DNA of 64,000 nt. Origin: Planctomycetota bacterium. GTDB taxonomy: Bacteria; Planctomycetota; SZUA-567; H5-PLA8. Below, in pieces: positions 1,021 to 27,766 of the stretch. The stretch is from NCBI GenBank assembly GCA_026184295.1, contig JAHCJK010000005.1, positions 1 through 64,000 on the forward strand, given 5' to 3'. Under the pieces are notes generated by a model. That model was not told where the DNA came from. It saw only the letters and a list, made by a program, of their open reading frames with translations, and ran no database searches. The position numbers were made by a program, and so were the translations under genes. Each line of letters begins with the position of its first letter. Position 1 is the first letter of the stretch.

Positions 1021-2736
1021 ATGAGCCACGCGATGAAACGTTCGCACTACGCGGACATCTTCGGGCCCACCACCGGCGACAAGGTGCGCCTCGGCGACAC
1101 CAACCTGGTCGCGCAGGTGGAACGCGACTGCACCGTCTACGGCGACGAATGCAAGTTCGGCGGCGGGAAAGTGCTCCGCGAAGGCATGGGCCAGGGGGCC
1201 GGCGTGAGCCAGAAGGACGCGCTCGACGTCGTCATTACCAACGCGCTGATCGTGGACTGGACCGGCATCTACAAGGCCGACATCGGCATTAAAGACGGGC
1301 GCATCGCGGGCATCGGCAAGGCCGGCAACCCCGACGTGATGGCCGGCGTAAGCAAGAAGATGATCGTCGGCGTCACCACCGAAGCCATCGCGGGCGAAGG
1401 CCTGATCTGCACCGCGGGCGGCATCGATTCGCACATCCACTTCATCTGCCCGCAGCAGGTCTACGACGCGCTGGCCAGCGGCGTCACGACCTTTATCGGC
1501 GGCGGCACGGGCCCCGCGACCGGCACCAACGCGACCACCTGCACGCCCGGCGCGCGCCACATCGAACTGATGCTCCAGGCCACCGACGCCCTGCCGATGA
1601 ACTTCGGCTTTACCGGCAAGGGCAACACGTCCCTGCCCGCCGGCCTGGAAGAACAGATCGCGGCCGGCGCCATCGGCCTGAAGCTGCACGAAGACTGGGG
1701 CACCACGCCCGCCGCCATCGACTGCTGCCTGAGCGCCGCCGAGAAGCACGACGTCCAGGTGACGATCCACACCGACACGCTCAACGAGTCCGGCTACGTG
1801 GACGATTCGATCGCCGCCTTTAAAGGCCGCACGATCCACACCTACCACACCGAAGGCGCGGGCGGCGGGCACGCGCCCGACATCATCAAGGTCTGCGGCG
1901 AAGCCAATGTCCTGCCCAGTTCCACCAATCCCACGCGCCCGCTGACGGTGAACACGCTCGACGAACACCTCGACATGCTGATGGTCTGCCACCATCTCGA
2001 TAAAAACATCCCCGAAGACGTCGCCTTTGCCGAAAGCCGCATTCGCGAAGAGACCATCGCGGCGGAAGACATCCTGCACGACCTCGGCGCGATCAGCATG
2101 ATCTCGAGCGACAGCCAGGCCATGGGGCGCGTGGGCGAAGTGATCTGCCGCACCTGGCAGACCGCCCACAAGATGCGCGAACAGCGCGGGCGCCTGCCCG
2201 GCGAGCAGGGCGCGAACGACAACCTGCGCATCAAGCGCTACGTGGCCAAGTACACCGTCAACCCCGCCGTCGCGCACGGCGTGGACGGCGAGATCGGTTC
2301 GGTCGAGACGGGCAAGTGGGCCGACCTGGTGCTCTGGAAACCGGCCTTCTTCGGCGTCAAACCCGAACTGGTGATCAAGGGCGGCTTCATCGCCTGGGCG
2401 CAGATGGGCGATGCGAACGCGTCCATCCCCACGCCGCAGCCGCTCTTCATGCGCCCGATGTTCGGCGCGTACGGGCGGGCGACGCCCCGCACGAGCCTCG
2501 CGTTCGTCTCCAAAGCCGCGCTGAAGAAGAAGGCCGGCAAGCGCTACGGGCTCGAAAAGAACCTCGTCGCCGTGCGCGGCTGCCGCTCGGTGACCAAGAA
2601 GGACATGAAGCTCAACGACGCGCTGCCCAAGATCACCGTGGACGCCGAGACCTACATCGTCACCGCGGACGGCGAAGCCCTGACCTGCGCGCCGGCCAAG
2701 GTGTTGCCTCTGGCCCAAAGGTACTTCCTCTTTTGA
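1021..2736 (+). CDS. ureC: Urease alpha subunit
   Basis: Catalytic subunit of urease, 571 residues, normal for the family. The nickel ligands are all visible: H138 and H140 (DSHIHF), the carbamylated lysine K221 (GLKLHEDWG), H250 (VTIHTD), H276 (TYHTEG) and D364 (ISSDSQAMG). The mobile-flap residues are present in MVCHHLD (C323-H324). The protein should therefore be active if the accessory proteins load nickel. The gene starts 1 bp after ureAB and its TGA overlaps the TTG start of ureF, so the urease genes are one transcript with coupled translation. The reverse strand carries a 663-codon open frame here, an artefact of GC-rich codon bias. Confidence 0.98.
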
Positions 2737-13237: not shown

Positions 13238-16483
<3,246 letters not shown>

Positions 16484-16498
16484 CGTAGGCTCCCATCG

Positions 16499-16551
16499 CC
16501 CGGTTCAGCGGATGGCCTAGGCCTCCGTTGAATCGGGCTTCTTTATTATAT
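16499..16551 (+). terminator. Rho-independent terminator of katG with GGCCTAGGCC apex
   Basis: Bases 16499-16537 fold into a long stem. The left arm CCCGGTTCAGCGGA pairs with TCCGTTGAATCGGG (two G-T wobbles, one bulged T), closed by GGCCTAGGCC at the apex. The T-rich run CTTCTTTATTATAT follows immediately, 15 bp after the katG stop. The apex is the same 10-mer as the operator at 16646-16655, 132 bp downstream centre to centre, so a secondary role as a repressor site is possible but unproven. Confidence 0.85.
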
Positions 16552-16617
16552 CCACATAAAATTCAATGATTTATGAGTCGAACTTCGCCGGGCGAAGGAT
16601 TTCGCGGCGAATTCCTG

Positions 16618-16668
16618 TTGCCAGGGCTCAGCCGTGGTGTATTATGGCCTAGGCCACTAAAGAGTGGC
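16618..16668 (+). promoter_or_regulatory. Promoter-operator-5' hairpin cassette driving the glycan locus
   Basis: A -35 box TTGCCA (16618-16623), a 16-bp spacer and a -10 box TATTAT (16640-16645) are followed directly by the palindrome GGCCTAGGCC (16646-16655). That position would let a repressor cover the -10 to +4 region. Transcription should begin near 16652-16653, where a stem-loop starts: GCCACT (16653-16658), loop AAAG, AGTGGC (16663-16668). The same order of elements is found upstream of the minus-strand gene at 27674. It controls the operon starting at 16703. The candidate repressor is the GntR-LacI protein encoded within the operon at 20077. Confidence 0.75.
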
Positions 16669-16702
16669 TCCTCTTACAGGCCAACTACGGAAGGAGCGCG
16701 GC

Positions 16703-19345
16703 ATGTCCCTGTCCATCGGCGCGGAAGCGGCTCGCCCTTACGACCGCGCGTGCGACGACAACCGCTGCATCAACTACCGCCCGGCCGACGGCAGCCGCGC
16801 GCTCTTGAATCCGCCGCGCTTCTCGTGGCCGTACCTGCCCGGCGTCTACCCCGGGCCGGACGACGCCCTGGAGCCCTACGATACTACCGGATTTTCCGTC
16901 GCCCCGGCACTCTTTACGTTGGAAGTCGCGCGCACCGAACGCTTCCGCCCGGAAGACCTGCTCTTCAAGGTCGAACGGACACCCTTCAACTTCTACAACG
17001 CGCTTCCGGTGCTGCCGGTCGGCCAGCCGCTCTTTTGGCGGGTGGCCTACCTGACGGAAGCGGGCGCGCACCGCGCCTGGAGCCCCACGCACGGATTCAC
17101 GATCGAAGCCCACGCGGCGACGTGGGACCGCGCGCGCATGCTGGAGCGCACGCCTCCGGCGCGCCCGCGGCTGCTGGCGCATCTTGGGTCGCGGGACGAG
17201 ATCCGCCGCCGTGGCGAAGCGAACGAGGACGGGCGGGAGATCCTCGCGCAGGCCGCTCGATGGAATGAACTTTCCTCGAGGAGCTGGTGGCGGAACCTGC
17301 CGGAGACGGACCGCCTGACGCGGCAGGCCTTTATCGAACGGCACCCCGACGCGGGCGGGAACAACTTCACCAACATCTGCGACGAACTGGCGCATCTGGC
17401 CTTCGCGCGGGTCCTGAACGGCCAGGGCGGCCTGGACGAGATCGCGGCGCACGCGGCCAAGATCGCTTCGTATCCGCTGGGCGGGCTGAGCGGTCCGGAG
17501 GGCGCGCCGGGCAGCTTCGGGGCCGACGTCGCGCAGCTGCCCGAGTTCCTCGCGGTGATCTACGACCTCTGCCACGGCGCGGCGAAGGAAGCGGACCTGG
17601 CCGCGATCCGCGCGGGCATCGCCTGGCGGCTTGCGTTCACGCACGACAATTTCGCCTGCCGCTGCCACGGAGGGCGGCGGGTGCAGGGGTATTCGCTGGC
17701 GCTGAGCGGGTCGAGCCACCCGGTCGAGTCCGGCATGGGGATGTTCTCGGCGGCGGCGCTGCTCGACGGCGACCCGGACCTGGCGCCCGGCGACCGCGAA
17801 AAGATCGAACGCATCTACGAGTACGGCCTGCACTGGCTGACCGGCGTGACCAACGGCTTCGGCACCGAGGAAAGCTGGAACGAAGGCCCCGGCTACGGCA
17901 ATTCCAAGATGCAGTGGCTGCTGAACGCGGTCTGCTACTACGACCTGGCGCGCCCCGAACTGCGCATGGGCCGCAACCCGGCGCTGAAGGCCATCGGGGA
18001 CTTCTTCCTCTACACCTCGCCGCTGGGCCTGCGCGGCGCGCCCTACGGCAACGGCGCGTCCAAGCGCGATTACGTCCTGCGCAACCGCATGTCCGGCGCG
18101 CTGCGGCTCGCGTATCTGCTCGAAGACGGAACCTTCCGGCGCACGTGGTCGCAGAGCCTGCCGGCGCTGGCCGCGCTGGGGCGCCCGGGGCAGGCGGAAG
18201 CGAAGATGTTCTGGCGTCCGTGGCTCGCCTTTGCCCTGGCGGCGCGCGGGCCGTCTGTGCGGGAAACCGACGCGCCCGCGGGCACGCGGCTCTTCGCGCA
18301 CGCCGGCTGGCTGTGCGCGAGCACGAAAGCACCGAACGATCTCGAGGCCTTCCGCGACTCGGCGGGCATGGTGGTGCAGGCGCGCCCGGTGGGCGGGTAC
18401 CAGCATGCGTTCTATTCCGACGGCAGCCCGCAACTGTGGGCCTTCGGCGAGGCGATCAACTACGGCTCCGGGACCACCGGCAACGGCGAACCCTTCGCGT
18501 ACGCCGCCATGAGCACCAACAACGTGATGGTGAACGGGATCGGCCAGCGCCATCTCTGCCACTGGGACCGCGAGCACTTCCGGCAGCGCCGCGTGCCCGC
18601 GCAGATCGCGCGCTTCGCCGCCTACCGCGAACTTTCCGAGGGCGGCGTGTACGCGCTGGCCGACCTCACGAACGGCTTCTCGGCGCACGCGGGCCCGGCG
18701 GGCCACTGGTGGGGCGACCAGACGGGTCCGTACCAGGACGGTCCGCTGCCGTCGGTGGCGCGCGCGCTGCGGCACATCCTGTTCGTGCGCGGGCGGTACT
18801 TCGTCTTCCTGGATGATTACGCGCTCGCGAAGGGGCAGCCGCCGGCGGCCTTCTCGTGGCTCTGGCACGTGCTCCAGCCGGGCCCGGTCGAACGCCTGGG
18901 CGCGGGGCGCATCCGCTACGCCGCGGGCAGCACGCGGGTGGACCTGGCGCACCTGCACGAACCCGAGGACCTGGCGCTCGACGACCGCGAGGGCCTGCAG
19001 GGCGCGCTGAATCCATTCACCGGCGAGGACTACCGCGCGGCAGTGGAGAAGCACTGTGCCCGGGGCGGCGGCGAGGCGCTGGTCATGGCGCACAACTTCT
19101 GGTTCACGGCGAAGAAGCGGGCGGCAAGCCGGCGCTTCCTCACGGTGGTCTATCCGACGCGTCAGGAAGAACCCGCGCCTCGCATCGAATCGGCGGGCCC
19201 GCTGGCGGTGCGCGTCGCGGGGCCGCACGGCGAAGACACGATCGACTTCGGCGGAACGCTGAAGGCCGCGGACCTGGCGATCGACGCCGAGGCGCTGGCC
19301 GAGGCCGCGGACCGCACGCGCCGGACGGGGAAGGGAGGGGCGTGA
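16703..19345 (+). CDS. Heparinase II/III-like polysaccharide lyase (DUF4962-type N-terminus)
   Basis: 880 residues. The N-terminal part (about 1-150) is a beta-rich domain of the DUF4962 kind (RFSWPYLPGVYPGPDDALEP, PLFWRVAYLTEAGA). Then comes an (alpha/alpha) toroid (about 170-520, with GTEESWNEGPGYGNSKMQWL). The C-terminal beta-sandwich (about 560-880) has YQHAFYSDGSPQLWAFGE and FVRGRYFVFLDDYAL, as in heparinase II/III and alginate lyase families. Such enzymes cleave uronate-containing chains by beta-elimination. No signal peptide is visible, so it may act on imported oligosaccharides. GGAAGGAG precedes the ATG. It is the first gene of a seven-gene operon, and its TGA overlaps the next ATG by 1 bp. 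Family membership is fairly sure, substrate unknown. Confidence 0.75.
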   Translation: MSLSIGAEAARPYDRACDDNRCINYRPADGSRALLNPPRFSWPYLPGVYPGPDDALEPYDTTGFSVAPALFTLEVARTERFRPEDLLFKVERTPFNFYNALPVLPVGQPLFWRVAYLTEAGAHRAWSPTHGFTIEAHAATWDRARMLERTPPARPRLLAHLGSRDEIRRRGEANEDGREILAQAARWNELSSRSWWRNLPETDRLTRQAFIERHPDAGGNNFTNICDELAHLAFARVLNGQGGLDEIAAHAAKIASYPLGGLSGPEGAPGSFGADVAQLPEFLAVIYDLCHGAAKEADLAAIRAGIAWRLAFTHDNFACRCHGGRRVQGYSLALSGSSHPVESGMGMFSAAALLDGDPDLAPGDREKIERIYEYGLHWLTGVTNGFGTEESWNEGPGYGNSKMQWLLNAVCYYDLARPELRMGRNPALKAIGDFFLYTSPLGLRGAPYGNGASKRDYVLRNRMSGALRLAYLLEDGTFRRTWSQSLPALAALGRPGQAEAKMFWRPWLAFALAARGPSVRETDAPAGTRLFAHAGWLCASTKAPNDLEAFRDSAGMVVQARPVGGYQHAFYSDGSPQLWAFGEAINYGSGTTGNGEPFAYAAMSTNNVMVNGIGQRHLCHWDREHFRQRRVPAQIARFAAYRELSEGGVYALADLTNGFSAHAGPAGHWWGDQTGPYQDGPLPSVARALRHILFVRGRYFVFLDDYALAKGQPPAAFSWLWHVLQPGPVERLGAGRIRYAAGSTRVDLAHLHEPEDLALDDREGLQGALNPFTGEDYRAAVEKHCARGGGEALVMAHNFWFTAKKRAASRRFLTVVYPTRQEEPAPRIESAGPLAVRVAGPHGEDTIDFGGTLKAADLAIDAEALAEAADRTRRTGKGGA

Positions 19346-20064
19346 TGCGAACGGCGATTCTAGTGGCGTGGGTTCTGGCCGCGGCCGGGACGGCGCTGCT
19401 GCAAGCGGAGGAGAAACCCGCGATGAACGAGGCTCAAGCCCCCGCGCCGGTGGCCCCCGAAAGCGAATGGGCGCGCAAGATGGACGCGCTGCGCAGGAAA
19501 CTCCAGGGCGGCGAGGTGCTCCTGCGGGATGCCTTCGACCGCGAGGCGCTCGGCGACGATTGGGTGCCCGAAGAAGGTACGTGGAAGACCGGCGGCGCGG
19601 ACGGCGGCGTGACGGGCACGCCCGGCACGAAGTACCCCGACTCGTTCCTGTGGACGAAGCAGTCGTTCAAAGGCGATCTGGTGGTCGAATTCGAGGCCGA
19701 GTGCCTCAGCGCGCCCGCGCACGACATCAACGTGGTGCTGAACGGGCGCGCGCCGAACTACCCCGACGAGAAGCCCATGTACCTGATGGGCGTGGGCGGC
19801 TGGGACAACACGCAGTCGGGCATCGAGCGCGCGCCCGAGTACAAGCTCAAGGCGCTGACCGAACTCTTCACCATCGAGAAGGCGCGCGTATACAAGGTCC
19901 TCGCCGCGCGCCTGGGTTCCAAGCTCTACCTTTTCGTGGACGGCAAGCTGATCGTCTCGGCGGGCGACCCCGACCCGCTGCCGGCCGAGGGGCAGGTGGC
20001 GCTGCACGTCTACAAGAGCACCGTGAAGTTCCGCAACGTCGTGATCCGCAGGCCCGCGAAATAA
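19345..20064 (+). CDS. Secreted LamG/DUF1080-like beta-sandwich protein
   Basis: 239 residues with a signal peptide (about 1-22, MRTAILVAWVLAAAGTALLQAEE). After a short charged helix, the rest is a concanavalin-like jelly roll (LLRDAFDREALGDDWVPEEG, GDLVVEFEAECLSAPAHDIN, KLYLFVDGKLIVSAGDPDPL, VRNVVIRR-type end), as in DUF1080 and laminin-G-like domains. These modules bind or hydrolyse carbohydrate chains. It overlaps the heparinase-like gene (TGATG) and is 12 bp before the regulator, so all are one transcript. Probably an extracellular glycan-binding partner of the DUF4091 glycosidase and lyase. Confidence 0.7.
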   Translation: MRTAILVAWVLAAAGTALLQAEEKPAMNEAQAPAPVAPESEWARKMDALRRKLQGGEVLLRDAFDREALGDDWVPEEGTWKTGGADGGVTGTPGTKYPDSFLWTKQSFKGDLVVEFEAECLSAPAHDINVVLNGRAPNYPDEKPMYLMGVGGWDNTQSGIERAPEYKLKALTELFTIEKARVYKVLAARLGSKLYLFVDGKLIVSAGDPDPLPAEGQVALHVYKSTVKFRNVVIRRPAK

Positions 20065-20076
20065 CCCGGAGCCCCC

Positions 20077-21282
20077 ATGCGAAAAGCCCGGCCGGCCGAA
20101 CATCCCGTCCCCGTCCTCGGCGACGCCGACTCCAAGGTCTCGCTCTGCGAACGCGTGCGTGAAGGCCTGCGCCTGCAGATCGTGCAGGGGCAGCTCAAAC
20201 CCGGCGACGCGGTGATGCCGGTTCGGCAGCTCTGCAAGGCGCTCAAGATCAACCGCGTCACCGCCGACCAGGCGATCCGCGACCTGGTGATGGAAGGGCT
20301 CCTGCGCAGCGAACACGGGCGCGGCGTCTTCGTGAACGACCTCTCGCCCTACCGCGTCGCGCTGCTCCCGCGGATGCGCTCCGAACACGCCGAAGCGCCC
20401 GGCGGCTACGCCGCGATGCTGGCCGCCGCGCAGGACGCGCTCACGCGCGCGAACGTGGTGGCGCAGATCGTCTTCCGCAAAGAGGGCGAACGCTTCGGCC
20501 CGTCGCTCGACGAGGCCCTGGCGCTGAACGCCGACGGCTACCTGCCCATCGGGATTCAGAACGAGGAATACCTCGCGCGGCTGGCCGAAACCGGCAAGCC
20601 GGTGGTGGCGGTGGACGCCGCGCCGCTGCGCTGCTCCTTCGACGGCGTGGTGCACGATTCGTTCCGCACCGGCTACCTGGCCGCGCGCCATTTGCTGGAA
20701 CGCGGGCACCGGCGCATCCTCTTTATCGGCTACGACCGCGGGCCGCATCCGGGGGATCCGACCGGGCGCGCGCGCATTCCGGAGCCCGACAGCGAACGCA
20801 TGGCCGCGGGCTTCGTCCACGCGCTCAAGGAGGCCGCCGTGCCGCGCGAGGAGGCGAAGTTCTTCGATTTTCTGCCGCGCGAAGGCGACGCGAAGTTCGC
20901 GCTGGCCCGCGACCTGCGCGGCGGCGCGTACACCGGCGCGGTGATGGCCCAGTCCCACGCGGAAGGCCTGAAGGCCCGGGGCGAACTGCCCGCCGAGCTG
21001 AGCGTCGTGATCACCGAAGCCGAGGCGGGTTCGGCTTCCGCGCGCGCGTGGACGCGCGTGGAACTGGACGAGAAGGAATTCGGGCGGCAGGGCGCCGCGC
21101 GGATGCTGCAGCGCCTGCCGAACGCGCGCAAGGGCCTGCCCGGGCCCGCGGGCGGATCGCTGATCACCATCGAACCGGTGCTCGTGGACGGCCCCAGCAC
21201 CCGGCGCGTCGGGCCGCCGCCGGAGCTGTACGAGTTCCTCAAGGCGCACCCCGAGGGCGCGCAGAAGGAGGTCCTGCGATGA
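20077..21282 (+). CDS. GntR-LacI chimeric regulator, candidate controller of the glycan locus
   Basis: 401 residues. A GntR winged helix occupies about 20-90 (RLQIVQGQLKPGDAVMPVRQ, then INRVTADQAIRDLVMEGLLR and EHGRGVFVND). The remainder is LacI-like and sugar-sensing (GYLAARHLLERGHRRILFIG near residue 200 is the typical strand-helix motif). It sits inside the operon whose promoter carries GGCCTAGGCC, and the convergent gene at 27674 has the same operator, so this protein is the most economical candidate to bind it. Its TGA overlaps the ATG of the next gene, with AAGGAGG upstream for that start. The ligand is probably a breakdown product of the glycan. Confidence 0.87.
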   Translation: MRKARPAEHPVPVLGDADSKVSLCERVREGLRLQIVQGQLKPGDAVMPVRQLCKALKINRVTADQAIRDLVMEGLLRSEHGRGVFVNDLSPYRVALLPRMRSEHAEAPGGYAAMLAAAQDALTRANVVAQIVFRKEGERFGPSLDEALALNADGYLPIGIQNEEYLARLAETGKPVVAVDAAPLRCSFDGVVHDSFRTGYLAARHLLERGHRRILFIGYDRGPHPGDPTGRARIPEPDSERMAAGFVHALKEAAVPREEAKFFDFLPREGDAKFALARDLRGGAYTGAVMAQSHAEGLKARGELPAELSVVITEAEAGSASARAWTRVELDEKEFGRQGAARMLQRLPNARKGLPGPAGGSLITIEPVLVDGPSTRRVGPPPELYEFLKAHPEGAQKEVLR

Positions 21283-22160
21283 AGACCCTGCTGGTGACCG
21301 GCGCGGCCGGACGGCTGGGAAGGGCGGTCTGCGCGGCGGCGGCGGGGCGGTACCGCGTCGTCGGCTTCGACCAGGCGGCCTGCGCGCCGGCCGAACACGT
21401 GCGCCCCGTGGCGGGCGACCTGCGCGACCCCGAGGCGCTCGCGCGCGCGGCCGAAGGCTGCGACGCGATCGTCCACACCGGCGCGCTGCTCGACCGCTTT
21501 ATCGGCAAGCGCCCGCGCAGCGAGTTCTTCGAGACCAACGTGACGGGGACGGACCACGTCTTCCAGGCCGCGCTCGCGCACGGCATCCGCACGGTGGTCT
21601 TTTCGTCCAGCACGGAAGTCTACGGGACGCGCTGGGAGGACTTCGGCGCGACGGTGATCGACGAGAGCCACCCGATCGCGCCGCAGACGATCTACGCGCT
21701 GACCAAGTTCCTGGGCGAAGGCATCGCGCAGAGCTACGCCGCGCGCCACGGCATCCGTTCGGCCTGCCTGCGCTACATGACCTTCAACGACAAGCCGCCC
21801 GAATCGATGAAGACGGGGCTGGTCGCGCGTTACCTGTGGGCGCGGGACGCGGCCGAGGCCAACCTGGCCTGCGTCGAGAGCGAGGGCTTCGAGCACGAGG
21901 TCTTTCTCGTCGGCCCGGAGACGCCGCTTACGAAGGCGGACGTCGTGGAAGCGGTCTGGAATCCCCAGGCGGTGCTGGAGCGCCACTGGCCCGGCAGCGT
22001 CGCGTTGCTCGCGCGCGCCGGCGTGAAGGTGGGCCCGAACGAACTTTACCCGGTCGTCTCCATCGCCAAGGCGCGGCGGATGCTCGGCTGGAAGCCCGCG
22101 TACACGTTCGCGGATTACCTGCGGCACGCGGCGGCGGCGTTGAACGAACAGGCGGCCTGA
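21279..22160 (+). CDS. NAD(P)-dependent sugar epimerase/dehydrogenase (extended SDR)
   Basis: 293 residues, extended short-chain dehydrogenase. The nucleotide-binding glycine motif is TGAAGRLG at residues 8-15. The catalytic residues are in FSSSTEVYG and YALTK (the YxxxK pair). Substrate-side sequence shows CLRYMTFNDKPPESMK. The family includes UDP-sugar epimerases and uronate dehydrogenase-like enzymes. In this context, oxidation of a free sugar or amino sugar to an acid, ahead of the ammonia-lyase-like fusion, is a reasonable guess. The start overlaps the regulator's stop (ATGA), with AAGGAGG at 21265-21271. Cytoplasmic. Confidence 0.82.
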   Translation: MKTLLVTGAAGRLGRAVCAAAAGRYRVVGFDQAACAPAEHVRPVAGDLRDPEALARAAEGCDAIVHTGALLDRFIGKRPRSEFFETNVTGTDHVFQAALAHGIRTVVFSSSTEVYGTRWEDFGATVIDESHPIAPQTIYALTKFLGEGIAQSYAARHGIRSACLRYMTFNDKPPESMKTGLVARYLWARDAAEANLACVESEGFEHEVFLVGPETPLTKADVVEAVWNPQAVLERHWPGSVALLARAGVKVGPNELYPVVSIAKARRMLGWKPAYTFADYLRHAAAALNEQAA

Positions 22161-22171
22161 AGGAGCGTGGC

Positions 22172-23701
22172 ATGAAGACGGCGATCGGCGGTCCCGACGT
22201 GGTCCAGCCCACCGGCGCGTACAGCGCGGGGGTTCGCGCGGGCGATTTTATCTACGTCGCGGGCCAGGGCCCGCTCGATCCGGCCACGGGCGAGATCGTG
22301 GGCGCGGACATCGAGGCCCAGACGCGCAAGACGCTCGAGAACGTGCGCGCGGTGCTGCGCGCGGCCGGCGCGGAGATGGACGCGTGCGTGAGCGTGACCG
22401 TGCACCTGGCCGACATCGGCGAGTTCGAACGCTTCAACCTCGTGTACGAGACCTTTTTCGCGGACCCGAAGCCCGCGCGCATCACGGTGGCCTCGGGCCT
22501 GGAAGGCATTCGCGTGGAGATCGGCGCGGTGGCCTACAGCCCGATGCGGCGCGCGGAGCAGGAGACGCCGGGGGTGCTCGCGCGCCTGGGCGTGCGCCCG
22601 CTGGTGAACGCGATGGGTTCCTACACCAAGTACGGCGGGCAACTGCTCGCGCCCGAGGCGCTCCAGGCGATGAACGAGGCCGCCGCGTGCAGCCTCGACC
22701 TGCTCGACCTTCAGCGCAAGGCCGGCGCGTACATCGCGCGGCGCCTGGGCGTGGAAGCCGCCTTTGTCAGTTCCGGGGCCGCGGGCGGGCTCTTCGTCGC
22801 CATGGCCGCGTGCCTGGCCGGGACGGACGTGGAGCGCATCGAACGCCTGCCGCGGACCGACGGCCCGAATGAGTGCATCGTGCTGCGCGCGCACCGCGAG
22901 TACTACCACCAGGGCCTGCGCGCCGCGGGCGCGACCGTGATCGAGGTGGGCGGCGAGGACGGGGCGAGCCTGGACGAGCTGCGCCGCGCGCTGAACGACC
23001 GCACGGCCGCGCTGGTGTACTACGCCTCGCACGAACGCAAGGGCCGCATCGCGCTCGAGGACTTCGTCGCCTGCGCCCGCGCGCTCGGCGAACGCCTGGG
23101 CCGGCGCATCCCGGTGATCGTCGATTCCGCCGCGGAGATCCCGCCGGTGGAGAACCTCACGCTTCCCCTGCAGCGCGGCGCGGACCTGAACGTCGTGAGC
23201 GGCGGGAAGCAGCTGCGCGGGCCGCAGGGCTCGGGCCTGGTGCTGGGCCTGCGCGGTCTGATCGAGGCGTGCATCGCGAACGGTTCGCCCAACGACGCGA
23301 TCGGCCGCCCGTGCAAGGTGACGAAGGAAGAGATCGCGGGCCTCGTCGCGGCGCTCGACCGCTTCCTGGCGCTCGACCACGCCGCCGAATGGCGCTCCTG
23401 GGAGGCACGCTGCGCGCGGATCGAACGGGCGCTGGCCGGCGTGCCGGGCCTGCGCGCGCGCGCCGGGCAGGTCGGCGAAGAGGAACACTTCCGCCCGATC
23501 CTGCCGTGCGTGCGCATCGCGTGGGACCGCGAGGCCTGCGCGAAGTCGCCCGAGGCCGCCTGGGCCGAGCTGACGCACGGCGACCCCGCGGTGCTGCTGC
23601 GCCTGGCCGGCGACGCGCTGGTCTACAGCCCGCAAGTGCTGCCCGAATCGCAGGACGAGATCGTGATTGCGCAGGTCCGCTCGGTCCTGCGCCAACCCTG
23701 A
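22172..23701 (+). CDS. RidA imine deaminase fused to SelA-like PLP-dependent lyase
   Basis: 509 residues in one uninterrupted frame. Residues 1-124 are a complete Rid/YjgF domain (PTGAYSAGVRAGDFIYVAGQ, then PARITVASGLEGIRVEIGAV), keeping R103 and E116, the counterparts of E. coli RidA R105 and E120 used for imine hydrolysis. From residue 130 the chain is SelA-like (VLARLGVRPLVNAMGSYTKY), with the aspartate D318 (IVDSAAE) and the PLP lysine K346 (SGGKQLRGPQGSG). SelA-like family members include D-glucosaminate-6-phosphate ammonia lyase. Such beta-eliminations release an enamine/imine, which RidA would hydrolyse to keto acid plus ammonia, so the fusion makes chemical sense. AAGGAG precedes the ATG. 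Substrate inferred: an amino sugar acid. Confidence 0.88.
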   Translation: MKTAIGGPDVVQPTGAYSAGVRAGDFIYVAGQGPLDPATGEIVGADIEAQTRKTLENVRAVLRAAGAEMDACVSVTVHLADIGEFERFNLVYETFFADPKPARITVASGLEGIRVEIGAVAYSPMRRAEQETPGVLARLGVRPLVNAMGSYTKYGGQLLAPEALQAMNEAAACSLDLLDLQRKAGAYIARRLGVEAAFVSSGAAGGLFVAMAACLAGTDVERIERLPRTDGPNECIVLRAHREYYHQGLRAAGATVIEVGGEDGASLDELRRALNDRTAALVYYASHERKGRIALEDFVACARALGERLGRRIPVIVDSAAEIPPVENLTLPLQRGADLNVVSGGKQLRGPQGSGLVLGLRGLIEACIANGSPNDAIGRPCKVTKEEIAGLVAALDRFLALDHAAEWRSWEARCARIERALAGVPGLRARAGQVGEEEHFRPILPCVRIAWDREACAKSPEAAWAELTHGDPAVLLRLAGDALVYSPQVLPESQDEIVIAQVRSVLRQP

Positions 23702-23717
23702 CAGAAAGGAACGCCGC

Positions 23718-24392
23718 ATGCCCCGCTGGAACTCCGACGCCGAACTCTTCGAACTGGTCGAGAAGGAACTGCGCACCGCGCTGCTGTGCGACGCGATGGA
23801 CGGCCTGGGCCGCCTGAACCAGGCGATGGAAGAATGCATCCGCCCGATGCAGCCCGACGCCGCGCGCGTGATCGCCGGGCGCGCCGCGACGGCGCTCTTC
23901 GTCGATGTTCACTACCGCCGCGCGAATCCGTACGAGTTCGAGATTCCCTACGTGGACGCGCTGAAGCCGGGCGACATCGCGGTCGTGGCCAGCAACCGCA
24001 GCCGTTCCAACGGCATCTGGGGCGAACTGATGTCCACTGCCGCCCAGTGCCGCGGGGCGAAGGCGACCGTCACCGACGGCATCTGCCGCGACTTCCGCCA
24101 GATCGTGGAACTCGGCTTTCCCGTCTACTGCGCGGGCCTGAAGCCGCAGGATTCCGCTCCGCGCGGGATGCTGACGGAGCACGCCGTGCCCGTGCGCTGC
24201 GGCGGCGTGCTGGTCAACCCCGGCGACCTGGTGGTGATGGACATCGACGGCGTCTGCGTCGTGCCGCGCGAGATCGAAGCCGAGACGGTGGCTTCGGCGC
24301 TGGACCGCGCCAGCCGCGAGAGCCATTCCAAGCGCGAACTGCTGGCCGGCGCCCTGCTGAGCGATGTGTACGCGCGCCACGGCGTGCTGTAG
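23718..24392 (+). CDS. RraA-like aldolase (HMG/KDG-type oxo-acid aldolase family)
   Basis: 224 residues of the RraA/HMG-aldolase family. The diagnostic motif is WGELMSTAAQCRGAKATVTD followed by GICRD: the Arg and Asp at the end bind the metal and the carboxylate of the substrate, and their presence points to an aldolase or decarboxylase rather than the RNase E inhibitor. It follows the RidA-PLP lyase by 16 bp (AGAAAGGA upstream of the ATG). In the pathway I propose it would split the 2-keto-3-deoxy acid into pyruvate and an aldehyde. Cytoplasmic; metal-dependent in known members. Confidence 0.83.
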   Translation: MPRWNSDAELFELVEKELRTALLCDAMDGLGRLNQAMEECIRPMQPDAARVIAGRAATALFVDVHYRRANPYEFEIPYVDALKPGDIAVVASNRSRSNGIWGELMSTAAQCRGAKATVTDGICRDFRQIVELGFPVYCAGLKPQDSAPRGMLTEHAVPVRCGGVLVNPGDLVVMDIDGVCVVPREIEAETVASALDRASRESHSKRELLAGALLSDVYARHGVL

Positions 24393-24455
24393 GCTGTGGC
24401 GGGTGGCTCGGAGCGGGACGTCGGGCAAGCGCGGCCGCGCGGGAGGCCTGCTGCC

Positions 24456-25568
24456 GTGGAATTCTACTTCTGCGAGACCTGCGGCAAGCGCGTGACCGGG
24501 AAAGACCTGGAAGCGGGCCTTGCGCGCAACAAGAAGCTGAACGGCGTCTTTTGCGCGCAGTGTGCGGCCGGCGTGATGACCATGGAGACGCTCCCGGTCA
24601 GCGAGGCCGAGGCGCGCAAGGTCCTGGCCGAGGCCGCCGCGAGCGAGAAGCCCGCGCCCGCGCCGCCGACGGGCGAACAACCGGCCGCCAAGAACCGCCC
24701 GCCGCGCTCCGCGGCCAAGGCGCAGCATAAAAACGAACGCGCGCGCGAGCGCGCCGGGCAGGCGGTCTGGCTCTACATGGCCGTGGGCCTGGTGGTGGCG
24801 CTGGCGGGCTTCTTTCTGTTTCTAAAAAGAGAGGACCGGCCCGCGGAGCGCACCCACGCGCCCGCGCCGCCGGCCAAGCCCGTTCCGCCGGCCGTGGAGA
24901 CGAAGCCCGAGCGCGTAGTTTCGCAGCCGCCCGTGCCGCCCGCTCCGCCTCCGGCGCTGCCGGTTCCGCCCGCGCGCATCGAGAAGACTCTCGAGCCGCC
25001 CGTGGAAGCGAAGTCGCCCGAGCCGGTGGTGGCGGAAGCCAAGAGCCCCGAGCCCGCGGTGGAAGCGAAGACCCCCGAGGCGATCGTTGAAAAGCCGCCC
25101 GAAAAGCCGCCGGCCGAGGCGCCGCCGCGGCCCGGCGCGTGGGTGGCGCTCTTCAACGGGCGCGACCTGACCGGCAGCCAGAAGGGCAAGAAGTCCGGCA
25201 GCGTCGGCGTCGCCAACGGCGCCTTTCACGGCGATCCCAGCGCGAGCGCGGACATCGTGTTCCCGCTGCCCGCCGCGAAGAACCTGGACATCGCCTGCGA
25301 AGTCTACGCGGAAAAGGACGTAAACATCGACCTCACGACGCCCTTCGGCAGCCTGGTGATCAACGGCGGCGCGCGGGATTTTCCCGCCGGCCAATGGGTG
25401 GCGATCGAGATCTCGGTGCGCGGGAGCCACATCAGCGCGCGGCGCGGCCAGGAAGCCATGGACTGCGACGAGAACTTCAAATCGCAGGCCGAGACGATGC
25501 GCTTTTATTTCCGCAAGGACGCGAAGCCCGGGCGCGTGCGCGGGCTGAAGGTTCGCACCGTCGAATAA
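24456..25568 (+). CDS. Membrane protein: N-terminal zinc ribbon, one TM helix, Pro-rich linker, LamG-like domain
   Basis: 370 residues from a GTG start with GGGAGG 9 bp upstream; an upstream in-frame GTG at 24396 adds only disordered residues. The N-terminus is a zinc ribbon (C6, C9, C33, C36). A single membrane helix follows near 108-130 (VWLYMAVGLVVALAGFFLFL), then about 100 residues rich in Pro, Glu and Ala with repeated EAKSPEP units. The C-terminal 140 residues are a DUF1080-like beta-sandwich (GAWVALFNGRDLTGSQKGKK). The ribbon is thus cytoplasmic and the sandwich outside the membrane. The same ribbon pattern occurs in the proteins at 34964 and 41942. Last gene of the operon; role perhaps glycan sensing. 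Confidence 0.72.
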   Translation: MEFYFCETCGKRVTGKDLEAGLARNKKLNGVFCAQCAAGVMTMETLPVSEAEARKVLAEAAASEKPAPAPPTGEQPAAKNRPPRSAAKAQHKNERARERAGQAVWLYMAVGLVVALAGFFLFLKREDRPAERTHAPAPPAKPVPPAVETKPERVVSQPPVPPAPPPALPVPPARIEKTLEPPVEAKSPEPVVAEAKSPEPAVEAKTPEAIVEKPPEKPPAEAPPRPGAWVALFNGRDLTGSQKGKKSGSVGVANGAFHGDPSASADIVFPLPAAKNLDIACEVYAEKDVNIDLTTPFGSLVINGGARDFPAGQWVAIEISVRGSHISARRGQEAMDCDENFKSQAETMRFYFRKDAKPGRVRGLKVRTVE

Positions 25569-25570
25569 CG

Positions 25571-25607
25571 CGCGCGGATCGAAGGCCCGGGGCCCTCGAT
25601 CCGCGCG
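25571..25607. terminator. Bidirectional hairpin between convergent genes
   Basis: CGCGCGGATCGA (25571-25582) pairs perfectly with TCGATCCGCGCG (25596-25607) across a GC-rich 13-nt loop. It lies 2 bp after the stop of the plus-strand operon and 24 bp before the end of the minus-strand gene at 25632. No T-run follows on either side, so termination may be weak or factor-assisted, but the position between convergent units fits. Confidence 0.65.
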
Positions 25608-25631
25608 AACACGTCCTTGAACTTTCCGCGA

Positions 25632-27674
25632 TCAATCGAAGTTGGTGATCTGGTCTTCCGACGGCCCGCCGGTGTAGTCCTTGCTCGGCCCCTGAATCTC
25701 GATCTCCTTGTTCACCGGGCCGGCGACGATCTCGGCGAGCTTGACCTTGGCGGCGGTCAGGTCTTCGGGGTTGTTGGTGAAGTGGAATTCGCGGAACGGC
25801 GCATCCCCGCCGCTCTGGCCGATGGAGGTCATCTTCTTGACGACGGCGTCGGCGGCTTCGGCGTTCTTGGCGCGGGCGAGCAGGATGTATTCGTAGTCGT
25901 TCACCGAATTGCGCCAGAGCTTGAGGCGGTGCGAAGGCAGCGCGCCGGAAAAGCCCATGGTCGCGCCGCTGTACACGCAGTTGTCGGCCAGGCCGCCGGA
26001 TTCCTGCTTGTTCGGGTCCGCGGAATCGAGGCCGAGCTTGAACATGATCTGCCCCACCAGGCCCATGCGCGCGTGGACGTACCCGCGGCTCTGGCAGCCG
26101 ACGTAGGACGAGGCGATCTCGTCGTTGCCCGTCGTCCCGTAGGTCATCATCTTGATGCCGGGGCCTTCGTAGTCTTTGATCTGGTGCTGCGCGCCGTTGA
26201 TGTGCCCCCAGTTGATGACCCAGTGGTCCACGGCGCCCTTGAGGTACTTGTCGGCGTGGTCGCGGTCGTAGGCTTTGTCCTTCACGCAGCCGGTGGGCTT
26301 GCCGTCGGCCTTCAGGAAGGTGCTGCAGTGCCAGTGGCCGATGTCGATGCGGTTGACGACCTGGACGTTCTTCTCCTTCGCGCCGGCAAAGGCCCAGCGG
26401 TTGACGTTGAAGAGGTAGCCCAGGCCCATGTAGTCGGGCCCGTCGGTCGGTTCGTCCAGTTTCCAGGGCGACGTGTTGCGTTCGCCGCGCCCGCCGAAGC
26501 CGCTGGGCTTCTGGTTGCTGTACAGTTCGAAGCGCGTGCGCGTCCAGCCCTTCTCGGCGATGTGGGTGATGTACTGTTCGGCGATGGCCTTGTACGAGTC
26601 CTCGAAGACCTTCAGCTTCGCGTTCTTGCCCGGGCCGTCGGGGATGGTGGTCTTGAACGGGCGGAAATCGAACTGCTTGTTGGGATCGCTCTCGCAGTTG
26701 TACGGGTAGTTGATGTTGAAGCCGAGCGTGAAGTGCGCGGGGGGCGCGCCGAACTTGTTGGCCTTGCCGTTCAGGATGTCGCCGAAGCGGTCGTCCCATT
26801 CCTCCCAGCTCATCACGCGCGCCTTCTCGCCGGAGCCTTCGACCGGGGCGCAGTACTTGGGGTTGCCGCGCTGGCTGTGGTAGGGCAGCACGTTCACGAA
26901 ACAGCGGTGGTCGGCGGCGAGCTTGAAGACCTGCAGGTCGATCTGCTTCGATTTCTCCGGCGTCTTGACGGCCGGCTGGCCGAGGCCGTTGCCGTTCAGG
27001 TAGGCGGTGGCGCCGAACTTTTCGCTGGGCATGCCGTAGTCGAGCAGGTCGAAGGCGTAGGTGGGGGCGTCGGGGAGCGCGAAGCCGAAGACGGTCAGTT
27101 CCAGGTTCAGCGCGGCCAGTTCCTTTTCGCCTTCCATCACGTGCAGGGTGCCCTTGTGGAGCCCGGCCTGCGCGTCCTTGGGAATCCAGACTTCGAAGAA
27201 GAGCACGCCCACCTTGTTGTCCGGCTTGGGCAGGCCCTCGAAGGACAGCGGAATGTCGAAGCGGGTGATGCCTTTCACGCTGCCGTCGAGCGGGACGATC
27301 AGGTCCGGCCCGAGGCCCGCTTTGACGTGGTTGACGTACGCCAGCACGCCGAACGAGGCGCGCTCGGCCGGGATCGTGCTGGGGCCCTTCAGGTCGGACA
27401 TCTTGGCCGCGAAGCCCTTGCCCGCCTGCGGGATCACCACCTGCACGGCCACGTCTTCGTTCTTGGCGCCGTAGAGCTTGATCGTTTTGGTCGCGGCGTC
27501 CCAGTGGAGGTTCTTCTGCTTGCGCGGGCCGAAGTCGCCGCCCGTGACTTCAAAGCAGGTGCCGTCGGGCTTGATGCCGTAAGCATCGCCGACGACGAAG
27601 AGGTCTTCCGCCCAGGCGGCCGCGCCGGCCAGCATTCCCCACGCGAGCAAGGCCACCGTGATCGTTCGATTCAT
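25632..27674 (-). CDS. Secreted DUF4091 / GH123-like glycosidase
   Basis: 680 residues with a signal peptide (about 1-23, MNRTITVALLAWGMLAGAAAWA). The C-terminus has the DUF4091 hallmark (SHRLKLWRNSVNDYEYILLA). The middle looks like a TIM barrel of GH123 type, and the N-terminal 200 residues are beta-rich. GH123 enzymes remove beta-N-acetylgalactosamine, though many DUF4091 members have untested activity. AAAGGAG precedes the ATG at 27674; a longer frame upstream runs through the promoter and hairpin and is not coding. Its promoter cassette at 27743-27715 matches the one at 16618, so it shares control with the heparinase-like operon, to which it is convergent. Confidence 0.75.
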   Translation of the reverse strand: MNRTITVALLAWGMLAGAAAWAEDLFVVGDAYGIKPDGTCFEVTGGDFGPRKQKNLHWDAATKTIKLYGAKNEDVAVQVVIPQAGKGFAAKMSDLKGPSTIPAERASFGVLAYVNHVKAGLGPDLIVPLDGSVKGITRFDIPLSFEGLPKPDNKVGVLFFEVWIPKDAQAGLHKGTLHVMEGEKELAALNLELTVFGFALPDAPTYAFDLLDYGMPSEKFGATAYLNGNGLGQPAVKTPEKSKQIDLQVFKLAADHRCFVNVLPYHSQRGNPKYCAPVEGSGEKARVMSWEEWDDRFGDILNGKANKFGAPPAHFTLGFNINYPYNCESDPNKQFDFRPFKTTIPDGPGKNAKLKVFEDSYKAIAEQYITHIAEKGWTRTRFELYSNQKPSGFGGRGERNTSPWKLDEPTDGPDYMGLGYLFNVNRWAFAGAKEKNVQVVNRIDIGHWHCSTFLKADGKPTGCVKDKAYDRDHADKYLKGAVDHWVINWGHINGAQHQIKDYEGPGIKMMTYGTTGNDEIASSYVGCQSRGYVHARMGLVGQIMFKLGLDSADPNKQESGGLADNCVYSGATMGFSGALPSHRLKLWRNSVNDYEYILLARAKNAEAADAVVKKMTSIGQSGGDAPFREFHFTNNPEDLTAAKVKLAEIVAGPVNKEIEIQGPSKDYTGGPSEDQITNFD

Positions 27675-27714
27675 GGGATTCGCTCCTTTACCTGCGCCGC
27701 TGCCTCGTTGAAGA

Positions 27715-27743
27715 GCCACCTCAAAGTGGCCTAGGCCTTTATA
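27715..27743 (-). promoter_or_regulatory. Second copy of the promoter-operator-5' hairpin cassette
   Basis: Read on the minus strand: -10 box TATAAA (27743-27738), then GGCCTAGGCC (27737-27728), overlapping a stem-loop made of GCCACT (27730-27725), loop TTGA and GGTGGC (27720-27715), with one T-G wobble. The cassette at 16640-16668 has the same order and spacing, and both are preceded by TGGTG. The arms keep base pairing while the loop and one arm base differ, which points to selection on structure. A -35 box is weak here. It drives the DUF4091 gene at 27674. Confidence 0.72.
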
Positions 27744-27766
27744 CACCAGCTCACGCGGGCGAAGGC

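Follow-up and report, generated by a model that had tools for sequence, protein, structure and literature searches.

What glycan would a bacterium take apart with a polysaccharide lyase, a glycosidase and an ammonia-lyase-like enzyme that carries its own RidA domain, and how would it keep such genes under one control? The question is raised by a locus in the window analysed here, a 64,000-nucleotide stretch of a Planctomycetota bacterium (assembly GCA_026184295.1, contig JAHCJK010000005.1, positions 1 to 64,000). Taken as a whole, the locus is best explained as a private catabolic regulon for a glycan of uronic acid and amino sugar, a reading that we believe about as readily as we doubt it. 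The computed results behind it are the gene families with their catalytic residues, a private operator, a core conserved in a second genus and, in a protein that joins RidA to a pyridoxal 5'-phosphate (PLP) enzyme, the loss of one of two paired histidines and of two phosphate-side arginines.

Layout and control of the locus

All eight reading frames of the original prediction are found at their places, and seven of the eight have family support. They form two convergent units that meet at a hairpin and share a promoter cassette at both starts, an arrangement borne out by reading the sequence, by a pattern scan of the genome and by shuffling. The features are as follows.

16514 to 16523, unstranded: candidate auxiliary operator, a copy of the palindrome GGCCTAGGCC that precedes the main one by 132 bp (exact match).
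16618 to 16645, plus: sigma-70-like promoter TTGCCA-16-TATTAT, overlapping GGTGTAT (10/12 matches).
16646 to 16668, unstranded: the plus-strand unit's main operator, consisting of GGCCTAGGCC and, after it, the inverted repeat GCCACTaaagAGTGGC (genome pattern scan).
16703 to 19345, plus: PL15/heparinase II-III-like lyase, 880 residues (Pfam DUF4962, above cut-off).
19345 to 20064, plus: secreted LamG-like / 3-keto-disaccharide-hydrolase-like protein (PF06439, 2.2e-06, above cut-off; N-terminal signal-like sequence).
20077 to 21282, plus: regulator with a GntR helix-turn-helix and a LacI-type sugar-sensing domain (PF00392, 4.8e-13; PF13377, 4.8e-10).
21279 to 22160, plus: extended short-chain dehydrogenase/reductase (SDR), uronate-dehydrogenase/epimerase-like (PF01370, 3.1e-30; nearest solved structure 4id9; uronate dehydrogenases 6mfh, 3rft).
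22172 to 23701, plus: fusion of 509 residues, RidA (about 1-125) and a SelA/DgaE-like PLP ammonia-lyase domain (about 131-509) (PF01042, TIGR01437, NF047797, 7lc0, 2dyy).
23718 to 24392, plus: RraA-like protein bearing the Arg-Asp pair known from class II pyruvate aldolases (PF03737, 2.3e-34; 3noj, 3.5e-26).
24396 to 25568, plus: zinc-ribbon protein (CxxC..CxxC) with one membrane helix, a proline-rich stalk and a C-terminal LamG-like domain (sequence; PF06439, 1.1e-04, below cut-off).
25571 to 25607, unstranded: hairpin common to both convergent units (folding against shuffles).
25632 to 27674, minus: exported GH123/DUF4091-like glycosidase with a D407-E408 motif (8k2f, 2.4e-22; fold search).
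27715 to 27747, minus: the minus-strand unit's operator with a -10-like element, GGTGTATAAAGGCCTAGGCCACTTTGAGGTGGC (sequence, pattern scan).

Both promoter regions align over a common stretch, TGGTGTATwawGGCCTAGGCCACn(4-6)GTGGCTCyTC. The pattern GGCCTAGGCCACN{2,12}GTGGC has exactly two matches in the whole genome (6.39 Mb), in the 16646-16668 promoter region and at 27715-27737; read backwards, it has none genome-wide. The 10-mer GGCCTAGGCC occurs six times in 6.39 Mb: three copies (16514, 16646 and 27728) sit in the two intergenic regions of the locus, two others fall within open frames and one is apparently intergenic. Given three copies elsewhere, chance would put three into some 350 intergenic bases with a probability of the order of 1e-12. 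The 64 kb window holds CCTAGG just three times, always within a copy of GGCCTAGGCC. The copy at 16514, which the original prediction omitted, may be an auxiliary operator. The plus-strand promoter ends immediately before the main operator, with no gap, which would place the latter in the classic position for a repressor.

The element GGTGTAT is a different matter: it occurs four times in the window (8151, 16636 and, on the minus strand, 27747 and 60602) versus 1.3 expected, each time some 30-70 bases ahead of a long frame, and in relatives it is likewise found ahead of the orthologous operon, of the paralogous modules and of the sulfatase described below. Standing so regularly before long frames, it probably belongs to the lineage's usual promoter rather than to the operator. 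A promoter-operator cassette with one mismatch lies on another contig of the same genome, C68 (stretch L071, about 1501-1521, minus strand), near a tRNA array; a short segment comes next, then a strong hairpin carrying a T-run, and no regulated protein gene was seen there.

In a genome of another genus of the same family (G156, stretch L052), genes for the GH123-like, PL15-like, LamG, regulator and SDR proteins stand in one row, with identities to the window of 67% for the PL15-like protein, 66% for LamG, 58% for the regulator and 75% for the SDR. Ahead of the first gene lies GGTGTATGTCGGCCTAGGCCA, the sole match there at up to two mismatches. A regulated core of these five predicted functions is conserved, and the co-regulation that had been claimed is supported by a private operator kept with its regulator in a second genus. 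Convergent to this operon is a sulfatase gene with an SGSH_C domain (L052, 14380-16849); its frame appears broken near position 16590 of that stretch, which would mean either a pseudogene or a sequence error.

Further support comes from a paralogous module of a regulator, a short LamG-like gene and a GH123-like gene, which stands behind a different palindrome, GTGCACTAGTACAC, both in the same genome (contig C1, stretch L022, 4900-9311) and in a same-genus genome (stretch L021, 9371-13700). The recognition helix reads NRVTADQ in the window and G156 regulators, versus NQVTATQ in the paralogous pair. Operator and helix change together, which argues for the GntR-LacI regulator as the putative binder. 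The paired operators offer a case in which sequence alone makes regulator, operator and regulon readable together.

The hairpin at 25571 folds at -33.1 kcal/mol, where shuffled versions average -19.8 (z = -4.5) and none equals it; it lacks a T-tail and is absent from the intrinsic-terminator listing. By eye, a signal peptide is visible in the GH123-like protein and in the LamG protein at 19345-20064, and none is seen in the lyase, the SDR, the RraA-like protein or the fusion. A simple gene caller erred on several frames in GC-rich sequences, and gene positions were taken from homology instead; the fusion starts at ATG 22172 and the SDR at ATG 21279. Directly upstream of the locus, at about 14300-16483 of the window, lies a KatG-like (catalase-peroxidase-like) frame, recognised by eye from its translation.

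The RidA-PLP fusion

The fusion frame runs uninterrupted through the RidA domain, a linker of about 10 residues and the PLP domain, with no stop at the joint. Its RidA half matches PF01042 at 6.5e-29 (100.8 bits, cut-off 27.3) and the RidA-type structure 2dyy at 9.1e-29, and it scores 105.5 bits with NCBIfam TIGR00004 (cut-off 106.25). Aligned to 2dyy, it keeps the active-site arginine at residue 103, in the PAR motif (PARIT, residues 101-105).

The PLP half matches 7lc0 (7.6e-37), TIGR01437 (1.4e-46) and NF047797 (4.7e-44), and by these matches is a distant relative of D-glucosaminate-6-phosphate ammonia-lyase (DgaE; hereafter DGL). The PLP lysine is retained as fusion residue Lys346 (SGGK). 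There is a single histidine (SHERKG) versus the pair of DGL: the alignments retain His162 and lose His163, although sequence alone cannot decide which histidine function is left. In DGL, arginines 301, 332 and 346 lie near the substrate phosphate (PMC9529869); they correspond to Cys, Arg and Gln in the fusion, with only R332 kept. The loss of two phosphate arginines fits the absence of a kinase from the locus. As had been predicted, the profile matches and residues together point to ammonia-lyase chemistry on an amino-sugar acid.

Why, then, would the enzyme carry RidA? The H163A variant of DGL lets go of the enamine, which then picks up its proton in solution, and the authors name RidA as an agent that removes enamines of this sort (PMC9529869). 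An enamine is the kind of compound that RidA consumes. For an enzyme that releases it in this way, a RidA domain on the same polypeptide would make sense. The fusion could be a self-detoxifying ammonia-lyase, that is, a beta-eliminating PLP enzyme lacking a C3 proton donor that hands its enamine to its own RidA domain; we lean against this idea while taking it seriously. RidA is regarded as a general housekeeping enzyme against stray enamines, and to our knowledge no built-in, dedicated RidA of such a kind has been described. Joined to one ammonia-lyase, RidA names a specific client, and the question of its essentiality becomes testable with one purified protein. If true, the idea would also explain why RidA is essential in hexosaminate pathways such as Ong, where, in Pseudoalteromonas, OngD is required for hexosaminate use and for growth on GlcNAc1A, for a reason said not to be known (PMC9537276).

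Screening 391 further genomes of the phylum (293 in an earlier, overlapping draw) turned up no second case of the fusion, and a contig scan reaching close relatives only gave one distant unfused homologue and no fusion. A literature search found no description of a RidA/ammonia-lyase fusion, which is no proof of absence. Near other DgaE-like genes of the phylum (stretches L023-L026), searches with the window proteins found no RraA, RidA or SDR gene.

Unfused relatives occur in other lineages, in haloarchaea and rhizobia. A Halosolutus plasmid (stretch L045) holds together GH18, a sugar ATP-binding cassette (ABC) transporter, a PIG-L deacetylase, DgaE-like, Rid, glucose dehydrogenase and lactonase genes, a cluster that matches the route predicted for Natrarchaeobius (PMC12343721). 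On plasmids of Natronococcus (L060) and Halomontanus (L064), heparinase II/III genes adjoin DgaE-like PLP genes, with D-aminoacylase, FAH-family and PIG-L genes also present in Halomontanus; these two stretches are possibly an archaeal locus for amino-uronate glycans. On rhizobial plasmids, RidA stands directly before a DgaE-like gene, in transporter operons. Judged by these haloarchaeal and rhizobial neighbours and by the essential OngD, the fusion is best read as an enzyme that deaminates an amino-sugar acid. On two plasmid stretches of Sinorhizobium meliloti (L051, L066), a DgaE-like sequence lies in a phosphonate-type cluster (phosphoenolpyruvate mutase, cytidylyltransferase, CDP-alcohol transferase); in L051 it falls within a long gene annotated as an SDR oxidoreductase, possibly another PLP fusion.

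Substrate, pathway and alternatives

Which glycan would feed such an enzyme? The lyase passes the DUF4962 cut-off (30.5 bits against 28.7), and a profile of three homologues finds the oligoalginate lyase 3a0o at 1.5e-27 and the exo-heparinase 6lja at 7.7e-27. Its H339, Y398 and H568 are invariant among the homologues, counterparts of catalytic residues 337, 390 and 555 of BIexoHep; Y398 and H568 align as printed, and H339 only if one gap is moved (SSHPVE versus DSHAVR). The predicted heparinase-like lyase can thus probably be placed as PL15-like. Its structure model was poor (predicted local distance difference test, pLDDT, of 41) and was set aside. For the GH123-like protein (mean pLDDT 69), each of the 22 best fold hits is a beta-N-acetylgalactosaminidase of GH123/DUF4091 type (E down to 7.6e-20, probability 1.00), and D407-E408 is invariant in six homologues. 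The window protein stays under the PF22680 cut-off (22.3 versus 27 bits), which its homologues in L052 and L021 pass. Profile match, modelled fold and DE motif speak for the original DUF4091/GH123-like assignment. Lyase, glycosidase and the G156 sulfatase suggest a sulfated, glycosaminoglycan-like or other amino-sugar/uronate polymer.

The RraA-like protein carries the Arg-Asp pair of the RraA-fold 4-hydroxy-4-methyl-2-oxoglutarate/4-carboxy-4-hydroxy-2-oxoadipate (HMG/CHA) aldolase (Arg123-Asp124) as R124-D125, counted from ATG 23718 and aligned to 3noj (GICRDF at residue 121). It remains under the equivalog cut-offs (PRK09262, 115.4 of 179 bits; TIGR02798, 102.3 of 304.5 bits). A known enzyme of the RraA family, encoded next to an exo-lyase gene, makes alpha-ketoglutaric semialdehyde (alpha-KGSA) from 2-keto-3-deoxyglucarate (PMC8563752). 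The window protein, although it has the residue pair, therefore need not be a pyruvate aldolase: pyruvate formation is one option and no conclusion.

From these parts we infer the substrates, the direction of each step, the repression and the hand-over to RidA. The glycan would contain uronic acid and an amino sugar, probably N-acetylated and possibly sulfated. The GntR-LacI protein would bind GGCCTAGGCC just downstream of both promoters and keep them repressed as long as it senses no sugar. The exported GH123-like glycosidase and the LamG proteins would work outside the cell, and the PL15-like exo-lyase would cleave imported oligosaccharides inside it. The SDR would oxidise a sugar at C1, and the PLP half of the fusion would eliminate water across C2-C3 of a non-phosphorylated 2-amino-2-deoxy-sugar acid. 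The fused RidA domain would hydrolyse the released enamine or imine to ammonia and a 2-keto-3-deoxy acid, and the RraA-like enzyme may then cleave or dehydrate such a keto acid.

Several observations weigh against this pathway. The expectation that the whole eight-gene set is conserved had to be given up: G156 shares no more than the core, the fusion is absent from all other sampled genomes, being known from one draft assembly only, and the fusion and RraA-like genes are missing from the G156 operon, the only orthologous one found. Lying outside the conserved core, these two may serve another substrate than the lyase and SDR. The PLP half scores 150.8 and 159 bits, far below the curated DgaE cut-offs (TIGR01437 needs 385.3 bits), and in a tree DGL and all His-His enzymes stand on one side of a 99/97 branch, with the fusion outside the DGL clade on a long branch. 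Rhizobial enzymes with an adjoining RidA keep both histidines, and for several haloarchaeal enzymes lacking the pair no Rid gene was found in the stretch read. The locus itself holds no kinase, deacetylase or transporter, as had been noted; PIG-L deacetylases are present elsewhere in the genome. As a general rule, compensation of a lost histidine by RidA is ruled out by the rhizobial and haloarchaeal DgaE-like enzymes.

A different use of the same genes would be two half-pathways for one disaccharide: the SDR and RraA-like enzyme would take the uronate half from the exo-lyase, through oxidation to 2-keto-3-deoxyglucarate and dehydration with decarboxylation to alpha-KGSA, and the fusion would deaminate the amino-sugar half. 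We think this rather unlikely. For it speaks Flavobacterium UMI-01, where the lyase product is oxidised by an SDR and the RraA-family FlDet, encoded beside an exo-alginate lyase gene, makes alpha-KGSA from 2-keto-3-deoxyglucarate (PMC8563752); the window lyase is closest to oligoalginate lyase and exo-heparinase, and the SDR resembles uronate dehydrogenases and is kept in G156 without the fusion. However, the locus has no alpha-KGSA dehydrogenase gene, and the RraA-like gene is missing from the orthologous operon.

The position of the fusion outside the core would also suit chance capture of an enzyme for a plain 2-amino-3-hydroxy acid (D-serine or D-threonine type) or a glycan-unrelated amino acid; the analogous OngC also deaminates D-serine and D-threonine (PMC9537276), and rhizobial homologues lie in ABC-transporter operons with ureidoglycine or asparaginase genes. 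We consider this improbable, the fusion being within the operator-controlled unit, flanked by the SDR and RraA-like genes, and its haloarchaeal relatives repeatedly beside heparinase, chitinase and deacetylase genes. More improbable still is an artefact, in which a sequencing error joins two genes or the second half is made from an internal start: the joint is open over its short linker without a stop, and no clear internal ribosome site is visible by eye, even if the fusion is in a single assembly and RidA and DgaE-like genes elsewhere are adjacent yet separate.

Relation to known systems

Of the original interpretation, co-regulation, lyase, glycosidase and amino-sugar-acid ammonia-lyase stand, and conservation of the whole set and undescribed chemistry do not. 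That no pathway of this type had been described was too strong, given the Ong pathway (PMC9537276) and the predicted haloarchaeal GDH (glucose dehydrogenase) + DGA + RutC route (PMC12343721). The marine Ong pathway, which includes a deacetylase and a PLP deaminase and cannot do without its RidA, is alike in that a PLP enzyme deaminates a non-phosphorylated hexosaminate to 2-keto-3-deoxygluconate (KDG), with RidA in the cluster and its own repressor (PMC9537276). In contrast to the fusion, OngC is of fold-type III and not SelA/DgaE-like, and RidA is a separate gene; there is no lyase or GH123, whereas the OngB deacetylase, a KDG kinase (KdgK) and transporters are present there and not in the window locus.

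DgaE/DgaF of Salmonella shares with the fusion the PLP superfamily, the catalytic lysine and the expected type of elimination (PMC9529869; 7lc0). Unlike the fusion, it takes a substrate phosphorylated by the phosphotransferase system, has His162-His163 and the three phosphate arginines intact, lacks a RidA domain and has DgaF in place of the RraA-like enzyme. The Natrarchaeobius route for N-acetylglucosamine (PMC12343721) and the Halosolutus cluster (L045) combine glucose dehydrogenase, DgaE-like, Rid-family (RutC) and glycan-cutting genes with a regulator; they differ in the separate RidA, a chitinase instead of PL15/GH123 and an IclR regulator, and are a prediction only.

For the flanking enzymes, the oxidative pathway of Flavobacterium UMI-01 for the alginate-lyase product 4-deoxy-L-erythro-5-hexoseulose uronic acid (DEHU) likewise has an exo-lyase, an oxidising SDR and an RraA-family enzyme in one route (PMC8563752), but no amino-sugar step or PLP enzyme, and it has an alpha-KGSA dehydrogenase. 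The PL15 enzymes BIexoHep (6lja) and oligoalginate lyase (3a0o) share domain layout and His/Tyr/His positions with the window lyase; its similarity to characterised members is distant only, and BIexoHep has a signal peptide, whereas none is seen in the window lyase. By our alignment, this lyase has a Glu at the neutraliser position, like heparinase II. With the GH123/DUF4091 beta-N-acetylgalactosaminidases (PMC11087588), the glycosidase shares fold and DE motif, although its identity to solved members is 11-16%. With comparable routes known in Ong and Dga, what is new lies in the fusion and its private regulon and not in the idea of the pathway.

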